From contig NZ_JBBCAT010000002.1 in the NCBI RefSeq assembly GCF_037203705.1, forward strand, positions 124,001 through 188,000: a stretch of DNA of 64,000 nucleotides, written 5' to 3'. The notes beneath the pieces are model-generated. The model was not told where the DNA came from and did no database searches. It saw nothing but the letters and a program-made list of their open reading frames with translations. The position numbers and the translations under genes were made by a program. The stretch is from Prosthecomicrobium sp. N25 (GTDB lineage: Bacteria; Pseudomonadota; Alphaproteobacteria; Rhizobiales; Ancalomicrobiaceae). This document shows positions 42,371-62,116 of this stretch, piece by piece. Each line of letters begins with the position of its first letter. Position 1 is the stretch's first letter.

Positions 42371-42417
42371 GACAGAGACTGAGTCCGTGCAAGGGTCATG
42401 TCTCGGGCCACCCGCCG

Positions 42418-42789: not shown

Positions 42790-43427
42790 GCACCGCCCTC
42801 CACCCTGAAGCGCCGCGCCTTGCGCAGGCGGACATAGAGCGCGCCGGCGCCGCCGTGGGCGAGATGCGCCTCCTCGAAGCCGACCACGTAGTCGCGCATG
42901 TCCGGCAGGGCCAGCCATTGCGGCACGACGCGGCGCAGGATGCCGCGCTCGTCCGGGTCGCGGAACCCGCCCTGGACCGGCCGGGCGCCCTTGCCGGTGA
43001 TGACGATCACCATGCGGGCGCCGCGTGCCTGGGCGCCGGCGACGAAGCGGCGTAGCGCCGCATGCGCCTCGTGCTGGGTCATGCCGTGCAGGTCGAGGCG
43101 CTCGTCGACGCCCATCGTGCCGCGGACGAGCTTGCGCTTGGTGCGCTGGTCGATCGGGGCGAGCGGCGTCGGCTGCGGGCGAGCCTTCGGCTTCGCGGGC
43201 GCAGGATCGGGGCGCGGCTGGGGGGGATGCGGATGGGCGGTCGGCGATGCGGCGGAAACCGGGGCGTCGTCGTGGACCGGCTCGATCATCGACTCGGCGG
43301 GGGGCGGCGGCGCGGCCTTGCGGCGGCGGGTCTTGCGTCCGGGCTCGAGCGGCGCCACCGACTCGGCGACCTTGCGCCACAACGCCCGCTCCTCCTCGCT
43401 CAGGTCGCGCTTGCGCCGGCTCGCCAT
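42786..43427 (-). CDS. Smr/MutS2-domain protein
   Basis: 213-residue protein with a C-terminal Smr domain, a fold with nicking endonuclease or RNase activity in several relatives. The first 110 residues are basic and then proline-rich, probably disordered. The Smr motifs are RLDLHGMTQHEA and VITGKGARP, with HGGAGALYVRLRK near the end. Starts at ATG 43427, one base after the mltA stop, and overlaps the following xre start. Function in the cell is not established; nucleic-acid repair or ribosome rescue are family-based possibilities. Confidence 0.85.
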   Translation of the reverse strand: MASRRKRDLSEEERALWRKVAESVAPLEPGRKTRRRKAAPPPPAESMIEPVHDDAPVSAASPTAHPHPPQPRPDPAPAKPKARPQPTPLAPIDQRTKRKLVRGTMGVDERLDLHGMTQHEAHAALRRFVAGAQARGARMVIVITGKGARPVQGGFRDPDERGILRRVVPQWLALPDMRDYVVGFEEAHLAHGGAGALYVRLRKARRFRVEGGA

Positions 43428-43428
43428 G

Positions 43429-44544: not shown

Positions 44545-44616
44545 CGGGGGCGGGGCAGCGGCGTCGGAGACGGGAGATCGCGGCCGGCACCCGCCACTTT
44601 CCCGGCCTCGGCGGGG

Positions 44617-45318
44617 TCAGTCGGGGGTCTGGGTGGCGACGAGATACCAGTTCGGGTCGCTCGACGTGGCATTCCGCTCGAAGGTCCAGACGTCGACGAG
44701 CTCGGCGACCTTGCCCGGATCGCCGTCCACCACCTCGCCCTTCTGGTCGCGGGTGACGGTGATCAGGTGGCTGACGAAGCGGACGGTGATCTGCACGAGC
44801 GAGCCGCGCAGGGAGGCCTCGACGATCTCGGCCTTGTCGATACCCACGAAGGTGGTCTCGACCGTCTCGCCGCGCGCCTCGCGGTCCTGGATGGCGGCCA
44901 CGAAGCCGTCGTAGACCTCGCGGGAGAGGAGCGGCTTCAGCGCCTTGCGGTCGCCCGCCGCGAAGCTCGTCACGATCATCTCGTAGGCGATGCGCGCGCC
45001 GGCCAGGAAGCCGTTCGGATCGAAGGTACGGTCGGCCGAGACGATGGTCCTCAGCGCCCGGTCGAGCGCCGGGCTCTTGGCGAGGGGCGGAGCCGGCGCC
45101 TCGGCGGCCTCGGGGGCCCCGACGCCGTTCGGGCGCGGCATGGGGATGACGTTGTCGCGGTCGGCGGCGTTGTCGACCCGGTCGCGGTTGGCATAGGGCG
45201 GCTCGATCGGGGGCCGCTCGCTGCCGGTCTTGCGCCCGAGCACGCTGCGGAGCCGCAGGAAGATGACCACCGCCAGCACGAGGAAGATGATGTTGTAGAT
45301 ATCCAGGAACTGACCCAT
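44617..45318 (-). CDS. timA: Tim44/TimA family membrane-associated protein
   Basis: Inner-membrane protein of 233 residues related to mitochondrial Tim44. One N-terminal membrane helix (IYNIIFLVLAVVIFLRLRSVLG), a polar linker with a proline-rich stretch, then the Tim44-like domain from about residue 85 (FLAGARIAYEMIVTSFAAGD to WTFERN). In alphaproteobacteria TimA is membrane-anchored; its exact function is not settled. Start ATG 45318, preceded by AGGTCCG; the frame runs further up without support. Divergent from fxsA; the 246-bp gap between them shows no clear site. Confidence 0.88.
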   Translation of the reverse strand: MGQFLDIYNIIFLVLAVVIFLRLRSVLGRKTGSERPPIEPPYANRDRVDNAADRDNVIPMPRPNGVGAPEAAEAPAPPLAKSPALDRALRTIVSADRTFDPNGFLAGARIAYEMIVTSFAAGDRKALKPLLSREVYDGFVAAIQDREARGETVETTFVGIDKAEIVEASLRGSLVQITVRFVSHLITVTRDQKGEVVDGDPGKVAELVDVWTFERNATSSDPNWYLVATQTPD

Positions 45319-45564
45319 CGGACCTCGACCTCGCGCGCGACGGCTCCGGCCCGAAGGCGGGGCCCGCGCCGTGTTATGTATGCTATCCCATCCTGCGATC
45401 CAGACGGAATCGTCGGCCGGGGCCGTTTTCGCGACCCTCCATCCCACAGGCTGCACGAAACGTGAAGATCACGGGGCGGCCCGCATCTTTCCCCGGCGGC
45501 CGGCCGACCCCATCTGAACCGCCATCGGCGGACGCATGGCGCCGCCCACCGAGGATTCGTGACG

Positions 45565-46068
45565 ATGCCCTTCGGGCTCCTGCTTCTCGTCGGCCTCGCG
45601 GCCTGGCCATTCCTGGAGATCGCGGCCTTCATCGCCGTGGGGCGCGAGATCGGCATCCTGCCGACCCTTCTGACGATCGTCGCGACGTCGGCGACCGGCG
45701 CGCTGCTGCTCAGGGTCCAGGGCCTCTCGGCCCTGAACGCCATCCGTCGCGACCTGAGGGCCGGCGGCCTGCCCGTCAACGCGCTCGGCCATGCCGCCCT
45801 GATCGGGATCGGCGGGCTGATGCTGCTCCTGCCCGGCTTCGTCAGCGACGTCGTCGGCCTGCTCCTGTTCCTGCCGCCCGTCCGCAGCCTGATCCTGGCG
45901 GCGCTCTCCCGCAATGCCAGCGTGGTCGTCGTGCGCTCGCGCCAGTCGCGGCGCGTGCTCGACCTGGAGCCCGAGGAGTGGCAGCGCCGGGGGGACGACG
46001 GGCCGGGGCCCGAGGGCTACCGCCCGGCTCTCCCCGAGGCCGATCGGCGGGAGCCGCCGCGGCCCTGA
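45565..46068 (+). CDS. fxsA: FxsA family membrane protein
   Basis: Inner-membrane protein of 167 residues. FxsA-domain patterns: PFLEIAAFIAVG, LLTIVATSATGALLLRVQG, and LMLLLPGFVSDVVGLLLFLPP, forming about three membrane segments; the C-terminal 50 residues are charged and soluble. E. coli FxsA relieves exclusion of phage T7 when overproduced; the native role is unknown. ATG 45565 is 9 bp after GAGGA; the GTG at 45559 is the alternative. Lies next to secB, as in other alphaproteobacteria. Confidence 0.88.
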   Translation: MPFGLLLLVGLAAWPFLEIAAFIAVGREIGILPTLLTIVATSATGALLLRVQGLSALNAIRRDLRAGGLPVNALGHAALIGIGGLMLLLPGFVSDVVGLLLFLPPVRSLILAALSRNASVVVVRSRQSRRVLDLEPEEWQRRGDDGPGPEGYRPALPEADRREPPRP

Positions 46069-46214
46069 GGCTGCGGCCGGGTCCGCAGGGGCGGTTTCCG
46101 GCCATTCGGCTTGTCGGGCCCGGCGGGGCGTGCTAGCGGGGTGCCTCCCCGGAGCGAAGGATCGGCCAGCTCGGCCCGGTCGCGTGCTCCGGCCCGCGAT
46201 CTTCCGAGGAAACC

Positions 46215-46706
46215 ATGACCGACATCGACGGCAACGCCCGTTCCAACATCGGCGGCCCCGCGCCGACCGAAGCGCCGTCCATCAACGTGCTCGCCCAGTA
46301 CGTGAAGGATCTCTCCTTCGAGAACCCGAACGCGCCGCAGTCGCTGCAGCCGCGCGAGAACGGGCCGGCGCTCAACATCAACGTGAACGTCGGCGCGCGC
46401 CCGCTCTCCAACACCGAGTTCGAGGTCGACCTGACCCTGCAGGCCCGGGCCGCGCAGGGGCAGGAGGTCGTGTTCGCGGTGGAGATCGTCTATTCGGGCC
46501 TGTTCCGGATCGTGAACGTGCCGGAGGAGCACCTGCACCCCTTCGTGCTCATCGAGTGCCCGCGGCTGCTCTTCCCCTTCGCGCGCCAGATCGTCTCGGA
46601 CGCCACGCGCAACGGCGGTTTCCCCCCGCTGATGATCGACCCGATCGACTTCGTGGCGCTCTACCAGCAGAACATGGCGCAGGCGCAGGCCGCCCAGCCT
46701 AACTGA
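46215..46706 (+). CDS. secB: protein-export chaperone SecB
   Basis: Cytoplasmic tetrameric chaperone that keeps preproteins unfolded and hands them to SecA. 163 residues. Marks: [16 protein letters not shown] at the N-terminus, [19 protein letters not shown], and the C-terminal [37 protein letters not shown] 46215 follows GAGGAAACC. Ends 27 bp before a strong terminator. Confidence 0.96.
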
Positions 46707-46733
46707 CCGCCGCGGTCCGTCGGACGATCAAGA

Positions 46734-46758
46734 AGCCCGGCTCCGGCCGGGCTTTTTC
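46734..46758. terminator. Rho-independent terminator between secB and dnaQ
   Basis: AAGCCCGGC (46734-46742), loop TCCG, GCCGGGCTT (46747-46755), running into TTTTT (46754-46758). A perfect 9-bp GC stem. The A-run on the other side (AAGAAG) makes it partly usable for the convergent dnaQ transcript too. Confidence 0.88.
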
Positions 46759-46781
46759 GTTCCGGACCGGCGCAGCCCGGT

Positions 46782-47516
46782 TCAGCCGGCCAGGGCGGGC
46801 GCCGGGACCTCGGCGGGCTTGTCCTCGTATTTCCTCCAGACCGCCGCGTCGCCGAGCCGGGCCACGAAGGCCTCGTGGGCGGTAATCTCCTCGGGCGTGA
46901 GGCGGGAGGGGAGCGGCACCGGGCGCTGGCGTGCCTGGCGCACCCGGGTGACGTTGCGACTCGTTGTCGCGGTGGCCGTCTCGGTGGCGAGCAGCAGCGC
47001 GGCCTGCCGCCCGCCGATCAGCTCGATGTAGACCTCGGCGAGCAATTCCGAATCGAGCAGCGCGCCGTGCTTGGTGCGGCGGCTGTTGTCGATGCCGTAG
47101 CGGCTGCAGAGCGCGTCGAGGGAGTTCGGCCCGGCCGGATGGCGGCGCTTGGCGAGCGCCAGGCTGTCGACCACCAGGTCCGGCGGGATCGGGCCCCTGC
47201 CGAGGCGGGCGAACTCGGCGTTAAGGAAGCCGATGTCGAAGGCGGCGTTGTGGATGACCAGGCGCGCGCCCTCGATGAAGCGGGCGAACTCCTCCGCCAC
47301 GGCGGCGAAGACCGGCTTGTCGCGCAGGAACTCGTCGGAGAGCCCGTGAACGTCGAAGGCCGCCTTGGGCATCGAGCGTTCCGGGTTGATGTAGACGTGG
47401 AACGTGCGGCCGGTCGCGATGTGGTTGACGAGCTCGATGGCGCCGATTTCGACCACGCGGTCGCCAGTCCTCGGATCGAGGCCGGTCGTTTCTGTATCGA
47501 GGACGATCTCGCGCAA
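46782..47516 (-). CDS. dnaQ: DNA polymerase III epsilon subunit (3'-5' proofreading exonuclease)
   Basis: Proofreading subunit of the replicative polymerase, 244 residues. DEDDh exonuclease: D7 and E9 in LDTETTGLDP, IHNAAFDIGFLN (Exo II Asp), and the H-x4-D Exo III region KHGALLDSELLAEVY. A C-terminal tail after residue 185 binds the alpha subunit. The start codon is TTG (47516) with GGGAG 8 bp upstream. Part of the origin-proximal series ppsR-maf-aroE-coaE-dnaQ. Confidence 0.94.
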   Translation of the reverse strand: MREIVLDTETTGLDPRTGDRVVEIGAIELVNHIATGRTFHVYINPERSMPKAAFDVHGLSDEFLRDKPVFAAVAEEFARFIEGARLVIHNAAFDIGFLNAEFARLGRGPIPPDLVVDSLALAKRRHPAGPNSLDALCSRYGIDNSRRTKHGALLDSELLAEVYIELIGGRQAALLLATETATATTSRNVTRVRQARQRPVPLPSRLTPEEITAHEAFVARLGDAAVWRKYEDKPAEVPAPALAG

Positions 47517-47546
47517 GCTGCGGCTCCCGGGAACAGGGAGACGGAA

Positions 47547-48176
47547 TCACACCGGGGAGTCGGGCGCAAGCCCGCGGCGTCCGACCGTCCCCACCATCTG
47601 GGCGGTCGTCCGCAGGATGCCGTCGACCTGGGCGCGCGCGGCCTCGAGGCCACGGCCGGTGTCGATCACGAAATGGGCGCGGCGGCGCTTCTCGGCGTCC
47701 GGCATCTGCCGGGCCAGGATGGCATCGAGCTTCTCGGCCGTCATGCCGGGACGGGCGAGCACCCGGGCGCGCTGGACCTCCGGCGGGGCGCTGACGACCG
47801 CCACCGCGTCGACGCGGTCCGCCCCTCCGGTCTCGAAGAGGAGCGGGATGTCGAGCAGGACGAGCGGAACGCCGGCGGCGCGGCAGCGGTCCAGGAACGC
47901 GGCCTCCTCGGCGCGGACCAGCGGATGCACGATCGCCTCCAGGCGGGCGATGGCCTCCGGGCGGCCGAGCACGGCGGCGGACAGGCGCTCGCGGTCGACC
48001 GCGCCGTCGCGGGTCGTGCCCGGGAAGGCGGCCTCGACGAACGGCACGGCGGAGCCCCGATAGAGGCGGTGCACGGTCGCATCCGCCTCGTGGACCGGCA
48101 CGCCGCGCTCGGCGAAGATGCCGGCGGTCGTCGACTTGCCCATGCCGATCGAGCCGGTCAGGCCCAGGACGATCAC
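47547..48176 (-). CDS. coaE: dephospho-CoA kinase
   Basis: Phosphorylates dephospho-CoA at the 3'-hydroxyl, the final step of coenzyme A synthesis. 209 residues. P-loop GSIGMGKS at 8-15, then [22 protein letters not shown] and [11 protein letters not shown]. The GTG start (48176) overlaps the aroE stop (GTGA). Followed by dnaQ after 30 bp. Confidence 0.94.
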
Positions 48177-49009
48177 GGTGCCCTCCCCTCGATGTCGGCG
48201 AGGATGATATCCCGCAATTCGGGCGTCACGGTCGGGCGGAGGCCGAACCAGCGTTCGAAGCCGGGCACTGCCTGGTGCAGGAGCATGCCGAGCCCGTCGA
48301 CGGTGCGCAAGCCGCGGGCGCGGGCTGCGGCCAGCAAGGGCGTCTCGAGCGGCACATAGACGGCATCGGTGACGAGCACGTCCCCTGGCAACGGGGACAG
48401 GTCGATTTCCAGGTCGCCCTTGCCGGCCATGCCGAGCGAGGTCGTGTTGACCAGAAGGCGGCTGTCGCCCAGGAGCCCGGGCAGGTCCGGCCAGCCGTGG
48501 GCGGTCGTGCCGGAGCCGAAACGGCGGGCGAGCTCCTCGGCGCGGGCGAGCGTGCGGTTGACGAGGCGGACCGTGAAGCCCCGGCCGATCAGTCCCCAGG
48601 CGATCGCGCGGGCCGCCCCGCCGGCCCCGAGCACGACGGCGACGCCCGGGTCTCGGTCCCAACCTTCGGCACGGTCGTCGAGATTGGCGAGGAAGCCGAT
48701 CGCGTCCGTATTCGTGCCGCAGAGTTCTCCCCGCTCGATCCACAGGGTGTTCACGGCCCCTATCGCCTCGGCGGCGGGCTCGACCCGGGCGCAGGCGGCG
48801 AGCGCGGCCTCCTTGTGGGGGACGGTGACGTTGCAGCCGGCGAGCCCGGATCCGGGCAGTTCGGCGAAGAAGCGGGGGGCATCCTCGGGAGCGACGGCGA
48901 TGCGCTCGTAGGATCCGTCGATGCCGTACCGGCGAAGCCAATGACCATGGATGAGCGGCGAGCGGGAATGGGCGATGGGCCAGCCGATGACTGCGGCGCG
49001 GATGGTCAT
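48173..49009 (-). CDS. aroE: shikimate dehydrogenase (NADP+)
   Basis: Reduces 3-dehydroshikimate to shikimate in aromatic amino-acid synthesis. 278 residues. Marks: [25 protein letters not shown] (catalytic Lys), [16 protein letters not shown], glycine-rich [12 protein letters not shown] and the NRT motif binding NADP. ATG 49009 overlaps the maf stop by 4 bp (ATGA). Confidence 0.95.
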
Positions 49010-49635
49010 GCGAAACTCTCCCCCGGGGCGTCGATCAGCCCGCGGCCGCGCAGCCAACCGAGGAGCGGCAGCATGGGAAGGCCCAGGACCGTGAAATAGT
49101 CACCCTCGATCGCCTCGAAGAGGCGGATGCCCAGGCCCTCGAGGTGGTAGCAGCCGACGCTGCCCAGGATCCCCTCCCCGGCCGCATCCAGATAGTCGTC
49201 GACGGCGGCGGGGTCGAGGGGACGCATCGTCAGGCGCGCGACCGACACGTGGCGCCAGACGACCACGCCCGCCTCGGCCGCGGCCACCGCGGCATGGAGC
49301 TCGTGAGTGCGGCCCTGCAGGCGGCCGAGCTGGCGGCAGGCCTCGGCGCGGGTCTCCGCCTTGACGAGGACTTCGGCGCCAAGGCCGAGCGTCTGGTCGG
49401 CGCCGAGCACGAGGCGGCCCGGCATCCGGGCCGAGACGGCGAGCGCCTTGGCCTCGGCCAAGTGCAGGGCGACCTCGCCCGGGCCGGCGCCGCGGGCCAG
49501 GAGAGGCGTCTCGACGGCGCGCTCGTCGACGCCGGCGCCGATGGCTTCGAAATCGAGGCCTGCGGCGCCGAGGAGCTTCATGCGGGCGGGGCTCCGGGAG
49601 GCGAGGACCAGGAGCGGGGCGGCGGCGCGGGTCAC
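49006..49635 (-). CDS. maf: Maf family nucleoside triphosphate pyrophosphatase
   Basis: Hydrolyses non-canonical or methylated nucleoside triphosphates; linked to septum control when overproduced. 209 residues. Marks: [25 protein letters not shown], and [19 protein letters not shown] at the C-terminus. The GTG start (49635) overlaps the ppsR stop (GTGA), so the block ppsR-maf-aroE-coaE is joined by three successive 4-bp overlaps. Confidence 0.93.
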
Positions 49636-50453
49636 TTCCGGTCCCTCTGCAGATTGATGATGGCGGCCGCCGTCTCCTCGATCGACCGGCGGGTCACGTC
49701 GATGATCGACCAGCCGTTGTCGGCGCAGAGCCGCCGCATCTGCGCGACCTCCTGCGCGATCGCCTGACGGTCGACGTAGCTCGTGTCGAAGCTGCGTCCG
49801 CCGAGCGCCAGGATGCGGTTCTCGCGGATCTGCGCGATGCGCTCGGGGCTCGCCACCAGGCCGACCACCAGCGGCTTCTCGGCGGCGAAGACCGATTCGG
49901 GGATGGGGACGCCGGGGACGAAGGGAATGTTCATCACCTTCACGCCGCGGTTGGCGAGGTAGATGGAGGTCGGGGTCTTGGAGGTGCGCGACACGCCGAT
50001 GATCACCACGTCGGCGTCGTCCGCATCCTCCGGGAGCTGCCCGTCGTCATGCACGAGGGTGAAGTTCATCGCGTCGATGCGGCGGAAATAGGTGGCGTCG
50101 AGTTCGTGCTGCGCGCCCGCGCGGTGGGTCTGGGCGACGTTCAGGTAGGTGCGGAAGACGTCGTGGACCGGGGCCAGGACCGACACGCAGGGCGCGCCCT
50201 GGTCGCGGCAGAAGCGTTCGAGCCGGGCCGAGAGGTCCTGGTTGACGAGGGTGTAGAGGACGATTCCCGGCGCGGCCTCGATCTCGATGAGCGCCCTGTC
50301 GAGCTGCCGGTCGCTGCGGACGAGGGGATGGACGTGCTCGATCGGCTCGATCGCCTCGTATTGCGCCGCGGCGGCGCGCGCGACGGTGATGAGCGTCTCG
50401 CCGGTGGAATCGGAAACCAGATGGAGATGGAAGTAGTTGGGCGCGTTCTGCAC
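49632..50453 (-). CDS. ppsR: pyruvate phosphate dikinase/PEP synthase regulatory protein (bifunctional kinase/phosphorylase, DUF299)
   Basis: Regulates PPDK or PEP synthase by ADP-dependent phosphorylation and phosphate-dependent dephosphorylation of a threonine. 273 residues. The N-terminal motif [15 protein letters not shown] and the P-loop [15 protein letters not shown] identify the family. The GTG start at 50453 is chosen because relatives begin a few residues before YFHLH; ATG 50522 would add 23 residues. It is the first gene left of the predicted origin, the position of the equivalent gene beside the Caulobacter origin. Confidence 0.9.
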
Positions 50454-50627
50454 GGACTTGTCCCCAGCGCGCGGCGGGTCGGTGGGCAAAGGGCCGCCGA
50501 CCGGCCTCGCCCGTCCAGTCATACCGGTCGGCCAGCGGCGATCAACAGGGCGGTGGGCTGGGGACGAAAATACGGGTTTCTCCGGAGTCGGCCCGACCCC
50601 GTCGGACTCGCAGAGGTGGTCGACTCC

Positions 50628-50636
50628 TTCTCCACA
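50628..50636 (+). promoter_or_regulatory. DnaA-box-like sequence
   Basis: TTCTCCACA matches the DnaA box TTATCCACA at 8 of 9 positions. Weaker 7/9 matches occur at 50458-50466, 50770-50778 (reverse strand) and 50792-50800. Confidence 0.5.
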
Positions 50637-50656
50637 GGGGGGAGTCGCGGCGCGGC

Positions 50657-50700
50657 GGCGTTAACGGTCTGGTAAGAAAGGTAAATGAATGGTTAACGCC
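50657..50700. promoter_or_regulatory. AT-rich inverted repeat with two CtrA-box-like sites
   Basis: GGCGTTAAC (50657-50665) and GTTAACGCC (50692-50700) form a perfect 9-bp inverted repeat around 26 AT-rich bases. Within it, TTAA-N7-GTAA (50661-50675) and TAAA-N7-TTAA (50682-50696) each match the CtrA consensus TTAA-N7-TTAA at 7 of 8 positions. This would let CtrA block initiation. Confidence 0.55.
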
Positions 50701-50752
50701 GACGCTCGGGAAAACAGGGGGCCGCGTCGGCCGTCCGCGCCGGAGGGCGTCG

Positions 50753-50768
50753 AGTTTCACGTGAGTCA
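50753..50768. promoter_or_regulatory. degenerate parS-like site in the origin region (13/16)
   Basis: AGTTTCACGTGAGTCA matches the parS consensus at 13 of 16 positions and overlaps a GANTC site (50763-50767). Confidence 0.4.
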
Positions 50769-50819
50769 TTGTGGAGAGCCGCCGATCCCGGTAATCCACG
50801 GGCCAGACTCAACAACAGA

Positions 50820-50835
50820 TCTCTTCTCGAAGAGA
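50820..50835. other. inverted repeat upstream of hemE
   Basis: TCTCTTC (50820-50826), two bases, GAAGAGA (50829-50835), ending 37 bp before the hemE start. Could be an operator or a 5'-leader hairpin. Confidence 0.4.
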
Positions 50836-50872
50836 AATCTTTAGGGACGAGAAGGGACGAGGGACGTGCCCG

Positions 50873-51910
50873 ATGGCGAGGGAAGGCCGGAAGCTCCTGG
50901 CGGTGATCGAGGGGGAGAGCGTCTTCCCGCCGCCGATCTGGATCATGCGGCAGGCGGGCCGCTATCTGCCGGAGTACAGGGCAACGCGGGCGGAGGCGGG
51001 CGGGTTCCTGGACCTCTGCTACAACCCGCGGCTGGCGACCGAGGTCACCCTGCAGCCGATCCGGCGCTACGGCTTCGATGCGGCCATCCTGTTCTCCGAC
51101 ATCCTGGTGATGCCGGATGCGCTCGGGCAGCCGGTGCGCTTCGCCGAAGGCGAGGGACCGCTTCTCGATCCGATCCGGCTCGACGAGGTGGGACGGCTGG
51201 ATCCTTCCCGCATCGACGCGCACCTGGCGCCGGTTTTCGAGGCGGTCGCGTCCATCCGGGCGAAGCTGCCGGCCGAGACCACGCTTCTCGGCTTCTGCGG
51301 GGCCCCGTGGACGGTCGCCACCTACATGATCGCGGGACGGGGCACGCCCGACCAGGGACCCGCCCGGCGGGCCGCGCTGAGCGATCCTGAGGGCTTCCAA
51401 CGGCTGATGGATCTCCTGGTGGAGGCTTCGGTGCGCTACCTGGCCCGGCAGATCGAGGCCGGCGCGGACGCGGTACAGATCTTCGACAGCTGGGCGGGCG
51501 TGCTGGACGATCTGGAGTTCGGCCGCTGGGTGGTCGAGCCGAACCGGCGGATCGTTGAGGGGCTCAGGGCCCTCAAGCCCGAGGCGCGGGTGATCGGCTT
51601 CCCGAAGGGGGCCGGGGCCATGCTGGAGGACTACGTGAGCCGCACGGGCGTGGACGCGGTCGGGCTCGACTGGACGGTCCCCCTCTCGTACGCACGGGAT
51701 CGCCTCCAGCCCCGGACGGCGGTGCAGGGCAACCTCGACCCGCTCCGCGTGATCCTCGGCGGTCGGCCGATGGAGGAGGGCATCGACCGGATCCTCGCCG
51801 AGCTCGGACAGGGACGGCTGATCTTCAACCTCGGGCACGGAATCACGCCGGACGCCGATCCGGAGACGGTCGGACGGCTCGTCGAGCGCGTCCGCGCGGC
51901 GCGGCGCTGA
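50873..51910 (+). CDS. hemE: uroporphyrinogen decarboxylase
   Basis: Decarboxylates the four acetate side chains of uroporphyrinogen III to give coproporphyrinogen III in heme synthesis. 345 residues. Marks: [17 protein letters not shown] near the N-terminus (active-site Arg residues), [14 protein letters not shown] (essential Asp), [19 protein letters not shown] and FNLGHGI at the end. ATG 50873 with GAGGGAC upstream. First gene right of the predicted origin, followed by hemJ after 13 bp. Confidence 0.96.
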
Positions 51911-51923
51911 GGGGCGGCCTGCC

Positions 51924-52463
51924 ATGACCGTTCGGGACGAGACGACGGCCGGCAAGGCCAATCCGGGGCTCAGGGCCATGGTGGCGCTGGTCATCACCGT
52001 GGCGCTCTTCGGTGCCCTGGCCTGGGTCGCGCCCACCGGGGCCTACGACTGGGTCAAGGCGCTGCACGTGATCGCCATCATCTCCTGGATGGCCGGGATG
52101 CTATATCTGCCGCGGCTCTTCGTGAACCATTGCGGCGTGGCGGTCGGCTCGCCCGAATCGCAGTTGCTCAAGGGCATGGAGCGCCGCCTTCTGCGCATCA
52201 TCGTCAATCCGGCGATGACGCTCGCCTGGGTGTCGGGGATCTGGATCGCCTGGAACGGTGCCTGGCTGAAGTCCGGCTGGTTCCACGGCAAGCTGCTGCT
52301 GGTCCTGCTGCTGTCGGGCGCGCACGGCTACTTCTCGGCGGCCGTCCGCAAGTTCGCCGAGGATCGCAACACCGTCTCCGAGCGCCACTGGCGCATGATC
52401 AACGAGATTCCGGCAGTGCTGATGATCGGGATCGTGATCCTCGTGGTCGTCAAGCCCTTCTGA
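51924..52463 (+). CDS. hemJ: protoporphyrinogen IX oxidase HemJ (membrane)
   Basis: Membrane protoporphyrinogen oxidase of the HemJ type, the penultimate step of heme synthesis, using heme as cofactor. 179 residues, four to five membrane helices. The conserved His H48 (ALHVIAIISWMAGMLYLPRLFV) and Lys K123 (FHGKLLLVLLLSGAHGYF) that define HemJ are present. The first 38 residues, including a membrane segment, extend beyond the commonest N-terminus. Forms hemE-hemJ with the preceding gene. Confidence 0.92.
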   Translation: MTVRDETTAGKANPGLRAMVALVITVALFGALAWVAPTGAYDWVKALHVIAIISWMAGMLYLPRLFVNHCGVAVGSPESQLLKGMERRLLRIIVNPAMTLAWVSGIWIAWNGAWLKSGWFHGKLLLVLLLSGAHGYFSAAVRKFAEDRNTVSERHWRMINEIPAVLMIGIVILVVVKPF

Positions 52464-52529
52464 GCCGATGCTCGTGTGGTGCGTGAACGCGTCCCGCCGG
52501 GCAGGGGCACTGAAACTTCGGCGGGGGGC

Positions 52530-52558
52530 TTGTTCGAATCCTCCGGCGCGACTAAATT
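52530..52558 (+). promoter_or_regulatory. candidate promoter in the rho leader
   Basis: TTGTTC (52530-52535), 17 bp, TAAATT (52553-52558), inside the 294-bp gap between hemJ and rho. If used it would give rho a 5' leader of about 190 nt. Nothing else in the gap looks coding or structured. Confidence 0.35.
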
Positions 52559-52757
52559 CCCCGCGCCTCGCACTTCCCGAGAGACGGTCGGGCGGCACCC
52601 ATCGGTCGCCGGCCCGACGCCACCGGAACAGATGTTCCGAGCGCGCGCTCCGTTTCTCTCGTTCCCCACCGTCCCGTTCCGATCCCTGTCCCCCCGTATC
52701 GGAACTCTCGCCGATCGGCCTCGCTTCAGGACGGCCCTGCCGAAAGAACCCCCGCCT

Positions 52758-54023
52758 ATGCAGCAGTTGAAACTCCAGGACCTCAAGTCGAAATCGCCCA
52801 CCGAACTGCTCGCCTTCGCGGAGGAGCTGGAGGTGGAGAACGCCAGCACGATGCGCAAGCAGGAGCTGATGTTCGCCATTCTGAAGCAGCTCGCGGCGCA
52901 GGACGTGGAGATCATCGGCGAGGGCGTCGTCGAAGTGCTGCAGGACGGGTTCGGGTTCCTGCGGTCCCCCGATGCGAACTACCTGCCCGGTCCGGACGAC
53001 ATCTACGTCTCGCCCTCCCAGATCCGCCGCTTCTCGCTCAGGACCGGCGATACGGTCGAAGGGCATATCCGCAGTCCGAAGGAAGGCGAGCGCTACTTCG
53101 CGCTCCTGAAGGTCAACACGATCAACTTCGAGGATCCCGACAAGGCGCGTCACAAGGTCCACTTCGACAACCTGACGCCGCTCTATCCGGACGAGCGCTT
53201 CAAGATGGAGCTCGACGAGCCGATCTCGAAGGACATGTCGGCGCGGGTGATCGACATCGTGGCACCCCTCGGCAAGGGACAGCGCGCCCTCATCGTGGCG
53301 CCGCCGCGCACCGGCAAGACGGTGCTCCTGCAGAACATCGCGCGATCGATCACGACCAACCACCCGGAGTGTTACCTCATCGTGCTGCTCATCGACGAGC
53401 GGCCCGAGGAAGTGACCGACATGCAGCGCACCGTGAAGGGCGAGGTCGTCTCCTCGACCTTCGACGAGCCGGCCATCCGCCACGTGCAGGTCGCCGAGAT
53501 GGTGATCGAGAAGGCCAAGCGGCTGGTCGAGCATGGGCGCGACGTGATCATCCTGCTCGATTCCATCACGCGACTCGGGCGCGCCTACAACACGGTCGTG
53601 CCCTCCTCCGGCAAGGTGCTCACGGGCGGCGTGGACGCCAATGCGCTGCAGAGGCCGAAGCGCTTCTTCGGTGCGGCCCGGAACATCGAGGAGGGCGGCT
53701 CGCTGACCATCATCGCGACGGCGCTGATCGACACGGGCAGCCGCATGGACGAGGTGATCTTCGAGGAGTTCAAGGGCACCGGCAACTCGGAGCTCATCCT
53801 CGACCGCAAGGTGGCCGACAAGCGCACCTTCCCGTCGATGGACATCACGCGGTCGGGCACCCGCAAGGAGGAGCTCCTCGTGCCCTCCGACGTGCTCAAG
53901 AAGACCTACGTGCTGCGGCGCATCCTCACGCCGATGGGCACTGTCGACGCGATCGAGTTCTTGCTCGACAAGCTGCGGCAGACCAAGACGAACGCGGATT
54001 TCTTCGATTCCATGAACACCTGA
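52758..54023 (+). CDS. rho: transcription termination factor Rho
   Basis: Hexameric RNA-dependent ATPase/translocase that releases RNA from stalled polymerase. 421 residues. N-terminal helical domain ([21 protein letters not shown]), RNA-binding cold-shock fold ([23 protein letters not shown] cut at residue 90), Walker A PPRTGKT with K187, Walker [12 protein letters not shown]-loop [13 protein letters not shown] and R-loop. Start ATG 52758 is the family start; the open frame to 52476 is the leader. No insertion domain. Ends before a 10-bp hairpin. Confidence 0.97.
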
Positions 54024-54040
54024 GGCGCTCGGGCCCCACG

Positions 54041-54056
54041 CGATTCACGTGGAACA
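54041..54056. promoter_or_regulatory. degenerate parS-like site downstream of rho (13/16)
   Basis: CGATTCACGTGGAACA matches parS at 13 of 16 positions and overlaps a GANTC (54042-54046). It lies 18 bp after the rho stop. Confidence 0.4.
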
Positions 54057-54077
54057 CTGATCGATTCGGAGATGCAA

Positions 54078-54103
54078 CGAAACCCGGTCCCGGCCGGGTT
54101 TCG
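54078..54103. terminator. hairpin terminator between convergent rho and DUF255 gene
   Basis: CGAAACCCGG (54078-54087), loop TCCCGG, CCGGGTTTCG (54094-54103). The perfect 10-bp stem carries A/T at its base on both sides, so it could serve both convergent transcripts, although no long T-run follows. Confidence 0.65.
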
Positions 54104-54128
54104 TCCATTTGGAGAGGAGCCCTGCTCC

Positions 54129-56183
54129 TCAGCCCGGCGATGCGGCCCTGTCGGGCGCCACGACCGGCACGGCGGACAGAAGAGCCTGGAGCCGGTCCGG
54201 GTCGGTGGTCGGCAGCGAACAGGCGTTGGCCCTGCACACATAGACGGTGGCCCGGCCCTCGAGCGCCTCGCGACCCTGGGCCGGATGGTCGGCCGGCAGA
54301 CCGGCCGTCGAGCGCAGCGGCAGGGCGACGACGCGCCGGTCCGCTGCACCGGCGATCACCCGCAGGAGCGCACGGGGGTCCGTAGCTTCCGGTGCGATCA
54401 GCACGGCCTCGATCGGCTCGAGACGGGTGTCCAGGGCATTCAGCAGCGAGGCCGTGCCATAGACGTTGGCCAGGATGTCCCCCGAGAAGGCCGTCAGGAG
54501 ACGATCCGCCCGCTCGCGGTAGCGGTCCTCGCCGGTCAGGATCCACAGGCGCACGAGGCACTCGGCCATGAGGCCGTTCGGGTTCGGAGTCGCCTCGTCG
54601 AGGGGGGACTTGGGTCGCGTGATCAACGCCTCGGCGTCGTCGGCGGTCAGGAAGTAGCCGCCGGTCCTGTCGTCCCAGTGGTGGGCATGGAGAGCTTCCG
54701 CGAAGCCGACCGCATCGGTGAGGTAGGCGGGCTCGGTGGTCGCCGCGAACAGCGCCAGGGAGGCGGAAGTCAGAGCGGCGTGGTCGCTGGAAAGGCCCGG
54801 GAAGATCAGCTGTCCGCCGCGCCAGCTGTGGCCGAGGCGATCCTGCCGCGTCATCGTACCGGTGACGAACGCGTAGCAGCGCTTGGCGAGGTCAAGCCAG
54901 TCGGGGCGGTCCAACACCGCGGCGGCCCGTGCCAGCGCCGCGATGGCGAGACCGTTCCAGTCTGCCAGAACCTTGTCGTCGAGCCCCGGGCGAATGCGGT
55001 CGGCGCGGCGTCGGAGCAGGAGTTCGTGGGCTGCGGCGAGGCGGGCCTCCTCTTCGGCCCCGCGACGTTCGAGGGCGCCGAGGCGGTTGAGGATCACCTT
55101 TCCTTCCCAGTTGCCGGCGGGCGTGACGTCGTAGACGGCCTTGAACAGGGGAGCCTCCGGGCCGAGCACCGCGTCGATCTCGGCCTCCGTCCAGACGTAG
55201 AACCGGCCCTCTTCGCCTTCCGAATCGGCGTCCAGGCTGGACGCGAAGGCGCCTTCGGGGGTGAGCATCTCCCGCTCGAGCCATCCGACCGTCTCTTCGA
55301 TTCGGATCCGGAACAAGGGATCCCCGGTCCGACACCAGGCGACGGTGAGGAGGTCGACGAGCTGGGCGTTGTCGTAGAGCATCTTTTCGAAATGGGGGAC
55401 CAGCCACCGGTCGTCGACGGCGTATCGCGCGAAACCTCCGCCGAGGTGGTCGTAGATGCCGCCCTGGCAGAGTTGGCGCAGGGTCAGAAGGACTTGGTCG
55501 ATCGGCTTGGAGTCCCCGGTCCGATGGCCGGCGCGCCAGAGGAGGTCGAGCAAGGCGGCCTGCGGGAACTTGGGCGCACCCCGGGTGCCGCCGGTGACCG
55601 GGTCCATCAGGCCGAGGAGGCGGGCGCCGGCCTCGTCGAGCAGGCCGCGGTGGAGGGCCACGCCCGAGCGCGCCCGCGCCTCGATGGCGGCGGTGAGAGC
55701 CGTCCGGTTCGCCTCCACCCTGTCGGGCTCCTCGCGGAAGACGCGGGCGACCTCCTGCATGACCTGGATGAAGCCGGGCCGCCCGTAGCGGGCCTCCTTG
55801 GGGAAGTAGGTGCCGCCCCAGACCGGACCGCCGTCCGGCGTCAGGAACATGGTGAGGGGCCAGCCGCCCTGCTGCCCGAGCGCGTGCAGCGCGGCCATGT
55901 AGATCTGGTCGACGTCGGGGCGCTCCTCGCGATCGACCTTGATGTTCACGAACAACCGGTTCATGACGTCGGCGACGGCCGGATCCTCGAAGGACTCGTG
56001 CGCCATGACGTGGCACCAGTGGCATGCCGCGTAGCCGACGGAGAGGAGAATGGGTCGTCCGGTCTCCCGCGCCTCCGCCAGCGCCTCCGGCCCCCACGGG
56101 CGCCAGTGGACCGGATTGCCGGCGTGTTGCCTGAGGTAGGGGCTCTGCGCTTGGTCGAGGAGATTGCGGGGGGCGAGCGGCAC
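54129..56183 (-). CDS. thioredoxin-domain protein of the DUF255/YyaL family
   Basis: 684-residue protein. N-terminal DUF255 thioredoxin-like domain with C54-H-W-C57 (GYAACHWCHVMAHESFED), then an (alpha/alpha)6-barrel glycosidase-like domain through the middle and C-terminus (GGIYDHLGGGFARYAVD, PHFEKMLYDNAQL, DKVLADWNGLAI). Related proteins include YyaL and human SPATA20; a redox or sugar-processing role is unproven. Start GTG 56183 with GGGAG about 9 bp upstream. It runs opposite to its neighbours and interrupts the usual rho-mnmE adjacency; its start is only 28 bp from that of mnmE. Confidence 0.88.
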   Translation of the reverse strand: MPLAPRNLLDQAQSPYLRQHAGNPVHWRPWGPEALAEARETGRPILLSVGYAACHWCHVMAHESFEDPAVADVMNRLFVNIKVDREERPDVDQIYMAALHALGQQGGWPLTMFLTPDGGPVWGGTYFPKEARYGRPGFIQVMQEVARVFREEPDRVEANRTALTAAIEARARSGVALHRGLLDEAGARLLGLMDPVTGGTRGAPKFPQAALLDLLWRAGHRTGDSKPIDQVLLTLRQLCQGGIYDHLGGGFARYAVDDRWLVPHFEKMLYDNAQLVDLLTVAWCRTGDPLFRIRIEETVGWLEREMLTPEGAFASSLDADSEGEEGRFYVWTEAEIDAVLGPEAPLFKAVYDVTPAGNWEGKVILNRLGALERRGAEEEARLAAAHELLLRRRADRIRPGLDDKVLADWNGLAIAALARAAAVLDRPDWLDLAKRCYAFVTGTMTRQDRLGHSWRGGQLIFPGLSSDHAALTSASLALFAATTEPAYLTDAVGFAEALHAHHWDDRTGGYFLTADDAEALITRPKSPLDEATPNPNGLMAECLVRLWILTGEDRYRERADRLLTAFSGDILANVYGTASLLNALDTRLEPIEAVLIAPEATDPRALLRVIAGAADRRVVALPLRSTAGLPADHPAQGREALEGRATVYVCRANACSLPTTDPDRLQALLSAVPVVAPDRAASPG

Positions 56184-56211
56184 GACGGTTCTCCCAGGAG
56201 GTTCGGCCTGA

Positions 56212-57576
56212 ATGCAGGAAGATAGGGCTTGGGGTCCCGGTTCCCACCCGGGAGCCGCGGGGTACGGGGAGGCAGTCCGGGCCGAGACGATCTTCGCGGT
56301 CTCGAGCGGGCCGGTGCCGTCCGGTGTGGCCGTGATCCGGATCAGCGGTCCGCATGCCCGATTCGTGGCCGAAACGATGGCCGGCGGGCTGCCGCCGCCG
56401 CGCCGAGCGTCGCTCCGCCGCATTCGGGCCAGGGACGGTCGCCTGCTCGACGAGGGCCTGGTTCTATGGATGCCGGGGCCGCGCAGCTTCACCGGCGAGG
56501 ACATGGCGGAACTGCATGTGCATGGGGGACGGGCGGTGGTCGCCGCCGTCCTGGAGGAACTCGGATCCCTGAACGGGCTCCGTCCTGCCGAGGCGGGGGA
56601 CTTCAGCCGGCGCGCCTTCCTGAACGGGCGTCTGGACCTGACCGAGATCGAGGGCCTGGCCGACCTGATCGGGGCCGAAACGGAGTGGCAGCGGCGCCAG
56701 GCGATACGCCAGGCGGACGGCGCTCTGCGGCGCCTCTACGAGGGATGGCGGAGCGAGATCCTCGCCCTGCGGGGGTTCGCCGAGGCGGAGCTCGATTTCG
56801 CTGACGAGGCGGATGTTCCGGAGTCGGTGGGCGCGGGGCTGTCGGAGGGGGCGGCCGTGTTGGCGTCGGCCATCGAGCGGCATCTCGCCGACGGGCATCG
56901 CGGCGAGCGCCTGCGCGCCGGGTTCGAGGTCGTGCTGATGGGACCGCCGAATGCCGGGAAGTCCAGTCTCCTGAATGCGCTGGCGCGGCGGGAGGCGGCG
57001 ATCGTCTCGACGACGCCCGGGACGACCCGGGACCTCATCGAGATCCACCTCGACATCGGGGGTTGGCCCGTGACGCTGGTCGATGCGGCCGGTGTCCGGG
57101 TAGGCGGCGATGCGATCGAGCAGGAAGGGATCCGGCGGGCCCTGACGCGGGCGTCCACCGCGGACCTGGTGCTGTGGCTCGACGCTGCCGATCTGCCGCC
57201 TTCCGATCCGCCCGCAGACGTGGATGCGGAGAAGGTCCTGCGGCTCGTCAGCAAGGTCGACTTGAGCTCGGACAGCAAACGTGGCGTCTCCGTGGAGACC
57301 GGTGCGGGGCTCGACGACCTGCTGGCCGCCATCAGCGAGCGCGCAGCCGGCCAGCTCCTGCCTGGGCCCGAGCCGGCCCTGACCCGAACCCGGCACCGGG
57401 CCGCGCTGGACACGGCCGCGTCCGCGCTGCGACGGGCGTCGAGTGTCGGCCTGCTTCCCGAGTTCCGGGCGGAGGAACTGAGGCATGCCGGAGATGCGCT
57501 GGGCCGAGTCACCGGGGTGATCGCCGTCGATGACGTCCTGGACGTCATATTCTCGCAGTTCTGCATCGGAAAATAA
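56212..57576 (+). CDS. mnmE: tRNA uridine-5-carboxymethylaminomethyl GTPase MnmE (TrmE)
   Basis: GTPase that with MnmG installs the 5-carboxymethylaminomethyl group on wobble U34 of several tRNAs. 454 residues. N-terminal tetrahydrofolate-binding domain (TIFAVSSGPVPSGVAVIRI), helical domain, G domain with G1 GPPNAGKS at 244-251 and G3 DAAGVR (for DTAG), and the terminal FCIGK with the essential cysteine. The N-terminus has about 24 residues before TIFAVSSG, more than usual, but AGGAGG 10 bp before ATG 56212 supports this start and no other start codon lies closer. Confidence 0.94.
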   Translation: MQEDRAWGPGSHPGAAGYGEAVRAETIFAVSSGPVPSGVAVIRISGPHARFVAETMAGGLPPPRRASLRRIRARDGRLLDEGLVLWMPGPRSFTGEDMAELHVHGGRAVVAAVLEELGSLNGLRPAEAGDFSRRAFLNGRLDLTEIEGLADLIGAETEWQRRQAIRQADGALRRLYEGWRSEILALRGFAEAELDFADEADVPESVGAGLSEGAAVLASAIERHLADGHRGERLRAGFEVVLMGPPNAGKSSLLNALARREAAIVSTTPGTTRDLIEIHLDIGGWPVTLVDAAGVRVGGDAIEQEGIRRALTRASTADLVLWLDAADLPPSDPPADVDAEKVLRLVSKVDLSSDSKRGVSVETGAGLDDLLAAISERAAGQLLPGPEPALTRTRHRAALDTAASALRRASSVGLLPEFRAEELRHAGDALGRVTGVIAVDDVLDVIFSQFCIGK

Positions 57577-57603
57577 GGTCATTTCGTATTCGGTTCGATT
57601 CAT

Positions 57604-57619
57604 TGTTTCACGTGAAACA
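57604..57619. promoter_or_regulatory. parS: parS centromere site, perfect consensus
   Basis: TGTTTCACGTGAAACA, identical to the 16-bp bacterial parS consensus. It lies between mnmE and mnmG, about 7 kb from the predicted origin and 3.5 kb from parB. An 8-bp inverted repeat (57590-57597 with 57632-57639) surrounds it and three GANTC sites flank it. Confidence 0.95.
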
Positions 57620-57646
57620 CCGATTCGACTCCGAACCGATCGGATT

Positions 57647-57676
57647 TTGACGTCCGGGGGTTCAACGCGCTAGAGC
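57647..57676 (+). promoter_or_regulatory. candidate mnmG promoter
   Basis: TTGACG (57647-57652), 18 bp, TAGAGC (57671-57676), 34 bp before the GTG start of mnmG. The -35 is good, the -10 weak. Lies just downstream of parS. Confidence 0.4.
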
Positions 57677-57709
57677 AGGGCCAGATGGCCCGTGTGACGG
57701 AGAAGAGAC

Positions 57710-59653: not shown

Positions 59654-60295
59654 ATGCCATCACGCCTGCCCGAGACTCCCGACAGCCTGGACGCCGTGCT
59701 GACTGTTTCCCGTGAAACAAAGGAACGGCTGTCCGTCTATGTCGAGCTGGTCCGGAAGTGGCAGCGCAGCCAGAACCTGATCGCCCCCGGAACGGTCGAG
59801 CGGATCTGGACCCGGCACGTAGCCGACTCGGCCCAGGCCTTGGCGGCGTTGCCCGAGGCCCGGCGCTGGGCGGACCTTGGATCCGGGGCGGGCTTTCCGG
59901 GCCTGGTCACGGCCATCTGTCTCGCCGGCGCGCCGGGGGCGCATGTGCATCTGGTGGAGAGCAACCGGGGCAAGGCGTCCTTTCTGCGGACCGTGATCCG
60001 CGAGACGGGTGCCCCGGCGTCGGTCCATGCGGAACGGATCGAGGGCTTCACGGCCACCTTCGCGGAGCCGGTCGACGCGGTGTCGGCGCGGGCGCTCGCG
60101 CCTCTTGCGGACCTCTGTCGGTTGGCCGAGCCGTTGTCCCGTCGCGGGGCAGCCCTGGTTTTCCACAAGGGACAAGATTTTGCGTCCGAGCTCGCCGAAG
60201 CTACTCAATCTTGGGTCCTCGATCTGGTAGAACATCCAAGCCGGATCGATCCGGGCGGCCGGATCGTCGTGATTCGATCGCTCAGACCCCGCTGA
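59654..60295 (+). CDS. rsmG: 16S rRNA (guanine527-N7)-methyltransferase RsmG (GidB)
   Basis: SAM-dependent methylation of G527 in 16S rRNA; loss confers low-level streptomycin resistance. 213 residues. Marks: RKWQRSQNLIAPGTVERIW, DSAQALAALP, SAM-binding WADLGSGAGFPGLV and VSARALAPL. ATG 59654; Shine-Dalgarno weak. A near-perfect parS is embedded at codons 17-22. Followed by parA after 19 bp. Confidence 0.94.
   Translation: MPSRLPETPDSLDAVLTVSRETKERLSVYVELVRKWQRSQNLIAPGTVERIWTRHVADSAQALAALPEARRWADLGSGAGFPGLVTAICLAGAPGAHVHLVESNRGKASFLRTVIRETGAPASVHAERIEGFTATFAEPVDAVSARALAPLADLCRLAEPLSRRGAALVFHKGQDFASELAEATQSWVLDLVEHPSRIDPGGRIVVIRSLRPR
59704..59719. promoter_or_regulatory. parS: parS site inside rsmG (15/16)
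   Basis: TGTTTCCCGTGAAACA differs from the parS consensus at one position (C for A at base 7). It is read as codons for VSRET in rsmG, so coding and centromere functions overlap. It is 2.1 kb from the perfect site. Confidence 0.8.
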
Positions 60296-60314: not shown

Positions 60315-61142
60315 ATGTCGGTTCTCATGAAATCGCCTCGCGTGCTCGCGCTCGCCAACCAGAAGGGCGGCGTGGGCAAGACGACCACCGCGATCAATCT
60401 CGGCACGGCGCTGGCCGCCATCGGCGAGTCGGTGCTGATCGTCGACCTCGACCCTCAGGGCAACGCCTCTACGGGCCTGGGCATCGAGCGGAAGGCCCGC
60501 AAGCGATCGACCTACGACGTGCTGGTCGGCGAATCCACGATCGAGGAGGTGGTGGTCGAGACGGCGGTGCCGCGGCTCTGGGTGGCGCCCTCGACGCTCG
60601 ATCTGCTCGGCGTCGAACTGGAGATCGCCGGCACGGCGGACCGGGCCTTCCGGCTGCGCAAGGCGATCGCGGCCTGCGCCGGGTCGACCGACCCGGCCGT
60701 GCCGCGCTTCACCTATGTGCTCGTCGATTGCCCGCCCTCGCTGAACCTCCTGACCATCAACGCCATGACGGCCTCGCATTCGGTTCTGGTGCCGCTACAG
60801 TGCGAGTTCTTCGCGCTCGAAGGCCTGTCGCAGCTGCTGTCGACGGTCGAGCAGGTGCGCGGGTCGCTGAATCCGGAGCTCACCATCCACGGCATCGTGC
60901 TGACCATGTACGACGCCCGCAACAACCTGTCGGGCCAGGTGGTCGCGGACGTGCGCCAGCACATGGGCGAAACGGTCTACGAGACCATCATTCCCCGCAA
61001 CGTGCGGGTCTCGGAGGCGCCCTCCTACGGCAAGCCGGCGCTGCTCTACGACCTGAAATGCACCGGCAGCCAGGCCTATCTCCGGCTCGCCTCGGAGATC
61101 ATCCAGCGCGAACGGCGGCTCCGCTCCGCTGCGGCGGCGTGA
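60315..61142 (+). CDS. parA: chromosome partitioning ATPase ParA (Soj)
   Basis: Deviant Walker-type ATPase that binds DNA as an ATP dimer and drives movement of ParB-parS complexes. 275 residues. Deviant Walker A KGGVGKTT at 17-24 with the signature lysine at 17, LIVDLDPQGNAST (Walker A'), VLVDCPPSLNLLT (Walker B). ATG 60315; no N-terminal HTH, so the chromosomal type. Forms parA-parB with the next gene. Confidence 0.96.
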   Translation: MSVLMKSPRVLALANQKGGVGKTTTAINLGTALAAIGESVLIVDLDPQGNASTGLGIERKARKRSTYDVLVGESTIEEVVVETAVPRLWVAPSTLDLLGVELEIAGTADRAFRLRKAIAACAGSTDPAVPRFTYVLVDCPPSLNLLTINAMTASHSVLVPLQCEFFALEGLSQLLSTVEQVRGSLNPELTIHGIVLTMYDARNNLSGQVVADVRQHMGETVYETIIPRNVRVSEAPSYGKPALLYDLKCTGSQAYLRLASEIIQRERRLRSAAAA

Positions 61143-61177: not shown

Positions 61178-62041
61178 ATGGCGGACAATCGCAGACTGGG
61201 CCGGGGGCTTGCGGCCCTCCTGGGCGACATGGCCGAGCCGGACACCGGGTCGGATCGCGGCGGTGCGAAGCGCGTCCCGATCGAGTTCGTGCGCGCCAAT
61301 CCCCGGAACCCCCGCCGGAGCTTCGCGGAGGCCGATCTCGCCGACCTCGCCCAGTCGGTGCGCGAGAAGGGCATTGTTCAGCCGATCCTGGTCCGACCGG
61401 CCCGAGGCATGCCGAACGTCTTCGAGATCATCGCCGGCGAACGACGGTGGCGGGCGGCCCAGCGGGCCGGCCTGCACGAGGTTCCGGTGCTGGTCCAGGA
61501 CGTGACCGATAAGGAGGCCCTGGAGCTCGCCATCATCGAGAACGTCCAGCGGACGGACCTGAACGCGCTTGAGGAGGCCTACGGCTACGAGCAGCTGATC
61601 GCCGAGTTCGGCTACACGCAGCAGGATCTCGGGCAGGTGATCGGCAAGAGCCGCAGCCACGTGGCCAACACGCTGCGCCTTCTCAAGCTGCCCGAGAGGG
61701 TGAAGGACTATGTGCGCGAGGGGCGGCTGACGGCCGGGCATGCCCGTGCGCTGGTGGGCGCTGCGGATCCCGAGGGTCTGGCGGCGCGGATCGTCGAAGA
61801 GGGCATGACGGTCCGCGACGCCGAGGCGCTGGCGCAGGCGCCGAAGGCCGTCGAACCCGCCAAGGCCGAGAAGGCCAGGCGCGAGAAGGACGCGGACACG
61901 AAGGCGCTGGAGAAGTCCTTGTCCGACCTTCTGGGCCTCGCGGTCGCGATCGAGCACAAGGACGGGGGCGCCGGCGAAGTCCGGATCCGCTATCGGACGC
62001 TCGAGCAGCTGGACGAGGTCTGCCGTCGCCTGCGGGACTGA
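61178..62041 (+). CDS. parB: chromosome partitioning protein ParB (Spo0J)
   Basis: CTP-dependent DNA clamp that loads at parS. 287 residues. N-terminal ParA-interacting residues (RRLGRGLAALLG), CTP-binding GERRWRA at 87-93 and ENVQRTDLNALEEA, helix-turn-helix TQQDLGQVIGKSRSHVANTL binding parS, and a C-terminal dimerisation domain. ATG 61178 has GGGGG about 8 bp upstream; ATG 61172, two codons earlier, is too close to it. Starts 35 bp after parA. Confidence 0.95.
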   Translation: MADNRRLGRGLAALLGDMAEPDTGSDRGGAKRVPIEFVRANPRNPRRSFAEADLADLAQSVREKGIVQPILVRPARGMPNVFEIIAGERRWRAAQRAGLHEVPVLVQDVTDKEALELAIIENVQRTDLNALEEAYGYEQLIAEFGYTQQDLGQVIGKSRSHVANTLRLLKLPERVKDYVREGRLTAGHARALVGAADPEGLAARIVEEGMTVRDAEALAQAPKAVEPAKAEKARREKDADTKALEKSLSDLLGLAVAIEHKDGGAGEVRIRYRTLEQLDEVCRRLRD

Positions 62042-62103: not shown

Positions 62104-62116
62104 TGCTTTCAGGAGA

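Follow-up and report, generated by a model that had tools for sequence, protein, structure and literature searches.

The window analysed here is a 64-kb stretch (C2:124001-188000) of genome G000, whose assembly comprises 5.95 Mb in 17 contigs. Within it, ppsR (DUF299/COG1806; 49632..50453, minus strand, NCBIfam) and hemE (50873..51910, plus strand, TIGR01464) diverge from the intergenic gap at 50454..50872, which conservation and position make a candidate chromosomal origin, oriC. A first-pass annotation had already predicted an origin here and given the gap 419 bp. This length held, from the GTG start of ppsR at 50453 (minus) to the ATG of hemE at 50873 (plus), and an in-frame ATG at 50522 as an alternative ppsR start would shrink the gap to 350 bp. 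Its richness in short A/T runs within a GC-rich setting was likewise borne out: there are 8 runs of at least 4 in the gap (19.1/kb vs 1.9/kb in the window), and the GC content is 0.652 vs 0.715 in the window, where equally AT-rich 419-bp stretches make up 3.6%. The gap thus shares with the Caulobacter origin type (Cori) a place between hemE and ppsR/COG1806, an intergenic length of about 400 bp and a composition AT-richer than the surroundings. The claim that it is the longest gap in the window was not borne out: with two simple gene callers, 4 and 7 stretches free of called genes exceed it, one of them (27860-28365, 506 bp) uncovered by both, although such callers overlook real genes (the codon-trained one missed coaE).

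Among the flanking genes named beforehand, ppsR, hemE, hemJ, rho, aroE and dnaQ were matched by NCBIfam models, as were mnmE and mnmG elsewhere in the window. The assignment of maf stands on an NCBIfam match that falls under the model cut-off, and coaE was identified from its translation alone. Genes had been expected to run away from the gap in leading-strand orientation and, with the codon-trained caller, coding bases do lean away mildly on both sides: 4,836 plus vs 7,872 minus on the left (36001-50522), and 7,854 plus vs 4,464 minus on the right (50873-64000). A figure of 69% plus for the left side, obtained with the cruder caller, conflicts with confirmed genes and was set aside as antisense miscalls, which this caller produces; the change of caller altered the gene-direction result and not the strand asymmetry described below. 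The tRNA and Rfam scans of the 64-kb window found nothing, and 16S rRNA gave no match in this assembly (completeness 99%) in a search that matched in 9 of 14 control genomes only.

Conservation of the gap and its motifs

We compared 110 loci, at least three of which look like duplicates: the window, 29 from a genome search and 80 from a hemE scan, almost all of whose records carry Hyphomicrobiales titles. Divergent ppsR and hemE were found in 96 of the 110; in the stretch examined, 12 are without ppsR and 2 without hemE. Gap length is 390-450 bp in 84 of these 96 loci, window included (range 360-658 bp). Aligning the gap with its counterparts, a check proposed at the outset, revealed conserved internal blocks along with this near-constant length. 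Among 15 family members, column identity averages 0.51 across the gap and reaches 0.85-0.94 in TGTCCCCA, GATCAACAG, TCCACAG, TTGTGGA and GGTAATCCAC. The first of these blocks (50459..50466, plus; 0.91 in the family) is of the TCCCCA type, which we take to be W-box-like, and the last (50790..50799, plus; 0.94) tops the scored blocks. GATCAACAG (50540..50548, plus; 0.93) is also among the best conserved, with at most one mismatch in 13/15 family gaps and 46/68 gaps from the scan, and fits no factor known to us. Beyond the gap itself, the surrounding 30-kb block is the longest conserved run found against the sampled parts of congener G001. Homology to the G001 origin region amounts to 893 bp/kb inside this block and drops to 78 and 182 bp/kb on either side of it; C2 samples farther out than 360 kb have 84 bp/kb and C1 has 22 bp/kb, with G001 densely sampled near its origin only.

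Two of the conserved blocks resemble DnaA sites. The DnaA-box-like TTCTCCACA at 50628..50636 (plus) has one mismatch to TTATCCACA, and its TCCACAG core has a column identity of 0.91; TTGTGGA at 50770..50776 reads on the minus strand as the DnaA-like core TCCACAA. With one mismatch, TTATCCACA occurs once in the gap and 5 times in the window vs 1.27 expected. Allowing at most one, it is found in 63/68 scan gaps (5.8 when shuffled) and in 7/15 family gaps (0.4 when shuffled). Strict rules for DnaA, CtrA and IHF sites were taken from passages of PMC1914354. By these, the DnaA box TTATNCACA is absent from this gap and found in 1/15 family gaps, while conserved TCCACA, ATCCAC and TCCCCA cores are present.

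Two CtrA-like sites, each one mismatch from TTAA-N7-TTAA, lie at 50661..50675 (TTAA-N7-GTAA, plus; column identity 0.65) and 50682..50696 (TAAA-N7-TTAA, plus; 0.72), with exact sites in some relatives' gaps. They are two of the three such sites in the window, for which 0.11 would be expected overall. The motif with at most one mismatch is present in 13/15 family gaps vs 0.4/15 in dinucleotide shuffles (exact in 7/15), and the 68 scan gaps give a weak signal for it (18 vs 12.4 shuffled). Neither site fits TTWW-N7-TTWW, of which this gap has none, and the IHF site WATCAN5WTR is absent from this gap and found in 1/15 family gaps. As the gap, unlike Caulobacter Cori, lacks the strict DnaA, CtrA and IHF consensuses, the oriC call rests on conserved cores, conservation and position. 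An excerpt of PMC1914354 holds that not every origin element has to be present.

The gap also carries a cluster of six GANTC (CcrM) sites at 50585, 50605, 50622, 50642, 50763 and 50806 (50585..50810) vs 1.3 expected; the window maximum per 419 bp is 7, in a stretch overlapping the gap. GANTC counts are 69 vs 22 expected in 15 family gaps, 47 vs 19 in 13 gaps of the order and 247 vs 101 in 65 others, while flanking coding sequences are depleted (62 vs 95, 42 vs 95 and 260 vs 514, respectively). The sole other spot in the window with at least 5 GANTC per 419 bp is 57506-57934, which spans a perfect parS between mnmE and mnmG. The genome carries dnaA and gcrA, and one N6_N4 methylase matches CcrM (E 2.5e-187, 622 bits, below the model cut-off of 830). 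GANTC in the Caulobacter origin was already noted in PMC3973325, a section of which reports that ccrM loss leaves initiation control undisturbed in Caulobacter, so that the GANTC sites here do not have to act as a switch.

parS sites and a putative composite element

A search for the parS 16-mer with up to 3 mismatches returned 6 places in the whole genome, 4 of them in the window (50753-59719) and 2 on C1. The perfect site lies at 57604..57619, between mnmE and mnmG; a site with one mismatch lies at 59704..59719 (plus), in the 5' part of the ORF at 59654-60295; and a parS-like site with three follows rho at 54041..54056 (plus). Next to them are a ParA-like ORF (60315..61142, plus, read from its translation) and parB, whose ParB_N domain is at 61268..61549 (plus; C2:185268-185549). 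The parS sites and parAB are thus 3-11 kb from the gap. In parts of PMC4468827, Caulobacter parS is placed within 8 kb of Cori, and a DnaA site is described within parS.

The fourth match, AGTTTCACGTGAGTCA at 50753..50768 (plus), is inside the gap, a difference from Caulobacter, whose parS is about 8 kb from Cori. Its 3 mismatches to the TGTTTCACGTGAAACA-like palindrome all fall outside GTTTCACGTGA. Its right half holds a GANTC (50763-50767), and it is the departures from parS in this half that create the CcrM site. The element, with a column identity of 0.73 in the family, was found in 12/15 family gaps, 0/13 order gaps and 3/68 scan gaps, those three looking like family loci; the order and scan counts reject a parS-like element general to the order. 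Its right half reads ACGTGANTC in 13/15 family gaps, with G or A at the N position, and one base separates the element from the TTGTGGA core. The stretch 50753-50776 therefore reads as a parS-like half-site fused to GANTC, beside a DnaA-type core, and is family-specific in the gaps examined. The portions of the literature on parS inside oriC that we drew on hold no description of such a parS-like/GANTC element, and this putative family-specific composite inside oriC looks like a new detail.

KOPS polarity and strand asymmetry

The motif GGGNAGGG, which we take to be KOPS, is polar genome-wide in G000 (848:549; reversed control 745:734). In three near-complete relatives its plus:minus ratio flips across the interval that holds ppsR, with counts on the two sides of 13:43 and 46:12 in G001, 5:20 and 26:1 in G007, and 14:58 and 56:11 in G033 (counts from 20-kb pieces, with arm boundaries set after the counts were seen). 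The position of the flip is resolved coarsely, to tens of kb in G001, where pieces of mixed polarity lie close by, and to several hundred kb in the other two relatives. Some arms show polarity in the reversed control as well (21:38 and 47:22 in G001). The flip in G000 is weak: 13:19 on the left (p 0.38; control 28:11) and 36:16 on the right (control 43:21). On C1, samples as far as 2.74 Mb give KOPS counts of 52:21 (control 38:49), and those past 2.89 Mb give 1:11. A search of four genomes for dif with an enteric-type consensus found none, so the terminus was placed by KOPS alone. On the assumption that the left end of C2 abuts the left end of C1, KOPS puts the origin at the gap and the terminus near C1:2.8 Mb, with arms of about 2.97 and 2.94 Mb (small C8-C17 excluded).

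GC skew had been suggested as a check on the origin. It is clearly positive to the left of the gap as well as to the right, with no sign change there and no lasting one in the sampled 920-kb contig C2, so this genome does not show the shift near the site that PMC1914354 lists as a supporting element for the Cori type, and skew is unusable in it as an origin finder. At four-fold sites, the strand component (mean of the two gene strands) is +0.158 to the left of the gap and +0.132 to its right, with 7/7 and 13/13 informative chunks positive. In the two KOPS parts of C1 it is -0.115 and -0.072, with 1/16 and 0/2 chunks positive. The second, codon-trained caller gave +0.158, +0.140, -0.117 and -0.059 for the same four regions. 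Each large contig (C1, C2) has one sign, with no switch at the KOPS-defined origin or terminus. In 11 sampled chunks of C3-C6, skew and KOPS mostly have the same sign, weak or mixed at C4:472k, C5:1 and C6:256k. Under the assumed contig order, a single physical strand is the G-rich one around the entire chromosome.

This asymmetry is absent in two congeners, G001 (-0.009 and -0.003; second caller -0.009 and 0.000) and G002 (+0.025, -0.048 and +0.016 in three chunks), and is hence best placed in the lineage of G000. As an example, the homologous 30-kb block has 0.000 left and +0.078 right in G001, and +0.143 and +0.162 in G000. A weaker uniform asymmetry is seen in G033, a single 4.49-Mb contig, with -0.079 and -0.054 in the KOPS arms (second caller -0.083 and -0.066). 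Whole-genome counts of GGGTGG are 1390:1792 in G033 (reversed control 1237:1685), 967:686 in G007 and 1479:1412 in G001. With the cruder caller, GGGTGG is commoner antisense in G033 and minus-strand genes are in excess in the samples, a combination that would shift its count in the opposite direction, so gene-strand imbalance does not account for the asymmetry there. Counts of 7-mer G-runs are sparse (G000 143:109, G001 73:91, G007 63:38, G033 55:71). We surveyed GGGTGG strands in 120 genomes of the order, closed and broken assemblies mixed, and inspected 18 further, 12 of which were chosen for imbalance, so that the figures give no rate. Seven of the 18 have a first contig approximating the whole genome; five of these are unbalanced (G067 1566:820, G066 1092:1623, G074 1188:1643, G072 468:735, G053 1267:959) and two balanced (G048 1326:1289, G061 1710:1687).

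The gap as probable origin, and alternatives

Synteny, gap length, conserved blocks, the GANTC cluster, the proximity of parS and parAB, and the KOPS polarity of relatives all support the initial proposal that this gap is oriC. Position, conservation and motif enrichment are plain at the locus, and dnaA, gcrA, parB and CcrM-like genes are present in the genome. We are confident that this Hyphomicrobiales bacterium has its DnaA-dependent oriC in the gap, a homologue of Caulobacter Cori in location and layout, and the gap is very probably a well-supported case of the already known alphaproteobacterial hemE-linked type. Protein binding, unwinding and firing at the gap are steps that we infer. DnaA would load on TCCACA/TCCCCA-type sites and open an AT-richer stretch, either 50654-50703 (50% AT) or 50804-50853 (58% AT); CtrA would repress through the two TTAA-N7-TTAA-like sites within the former stretch. 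CcrM methylation at the GANTC cluster may link initiation to the cell cycle, and ParB at the nearby parS sites may link it to segregation. Locating a likely origin in this Hyphomicrobiales family opens copy-number and cell-cycle work there, and provides a case in which reliance on GC skew alone, strong as the skew is, would put the origin in the wrong place or overlook it.

We read GC skew here as uninformative and not as refuting oriC. Passages of PMC1914354 describe it as a poor universal origin predictor and, together with parts of PMC6650430, report that it fails to mark hemE-linked origins in some relatives. The strong strand asymmetry of this genome looks like a new detail, for which a moved origin, unidirectional replication or some unknown strand-specific process are the alternatives. 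The 920-kb contig, positive left and right of the gap, and the 3.24-Mb contig, negative along its length, have the look of a pair of ordinary replichores that join where contigs end, as they would if the gap were the ancestral origin and main initiation had moved leftward, near a junction of the C1 end and the C2 start, with forks crossing the gap from the left; a homologous block without asymmetry in congener G001 would agree with such a move. We nevertheless give it very little credence: KOPS polarity opposes the skew over most of C1 (52:21 to 2.74 Mb, then 1:11), the blocks in the gap are still conserved, and uniform skew also occurs in the one-contig G033. Less credible still is that the gap does no more than drive ppsR and hemE as a divergent promoter region whose conservation reflects their regulation. 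Divergent and intergenic it is, and CtrA- and GANTC-type sites occur in promoters too, but its near-constant length across the compared loci, its DnaA-type cores, the parS cluster and the flip of KOPS here in relatives argue for more than transcription, as do the origins placed at the same spot in relatives by passages of PMC1914354 and PMC6650430.

With the gap as the working origin, a bolder reading, which we consider unlikely, holds both that one strand is G-rich chromosome-wide irrespective of replichore and that the family has built a ParB half-site/GANTC composite into its oriC. The first part would be an asymmetry detached from bidirectional arms that KOPS, and with it a balanced ori-ter layout, continue to mark; replication (or repair) running mostly one way from the ppsR-hemE origin would fit it, with weaker forms in other Hyphomicrobiales. 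If the asymmetry does reflect the mode of replication, a mainly one-way main chromosome would be very surprising. The composite, as read from its motifs, would bring segregation, methylation state and initiation together at a single site, beside a DnaA core.

Large replicons predicted to be unidirectional also have a GC skew without the usual two arms, as a section of PMC7858055 reports. The cases that it documents by sequencing depth are chromids of Pseudoalteromonas, in most of which dif is near ori, whereas here we deal with a main chromosome with KOPS arms. Here the samples of C1 and of C2 each carry a single sign, and uniformity over the full circle, as in a replicon of that kind, would depend on the assumed contig order.

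As to the gap itself, the initial statement that the Caulobacter origin sits beside hemE agrees with PMC1914354, a portion of which places Cori between hemE and COG1806. The likeness to C. crescentus Cori extends to similar size, CtrA-like sites of the TTAA-N7-TTAA type, GANTC and parS a few kb off (from sections of PMC1914354, PMC4468827 and PMC3973325). For Hyphomonas neptunium, parts of PMC6650430 put the peak of marker frequency near hemE, so that hemE is by the origin there too, with parAB about 7 kb away and a GC skew that is not clear. That origin was mapped by experiment, while ours is predicted from sequence, and its two reported parS sites are upstream of parAB. The origins predicted for Rickettsia, Wolbachia and relatives in portions of PMC1914354 are also hemE-linked, measure 383-620 bp and were called by the same kind of criteria; origins of that group are AT-rich, unlike this one, and COG1253 replaces ppsR in Wolbachia, Ehrlichia and Anaplasma. 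Within our own comparison, the gaps of relatives L013, L028, L031 and L235 are much more AT-rich (GC 0.29-0.46 vs 0.65 here), and L219, titled Bacillus subtilis SK6B4, has an alphaproteobacterial-type ppsR-hemE gap of 414 bp, its title being probably wrong.
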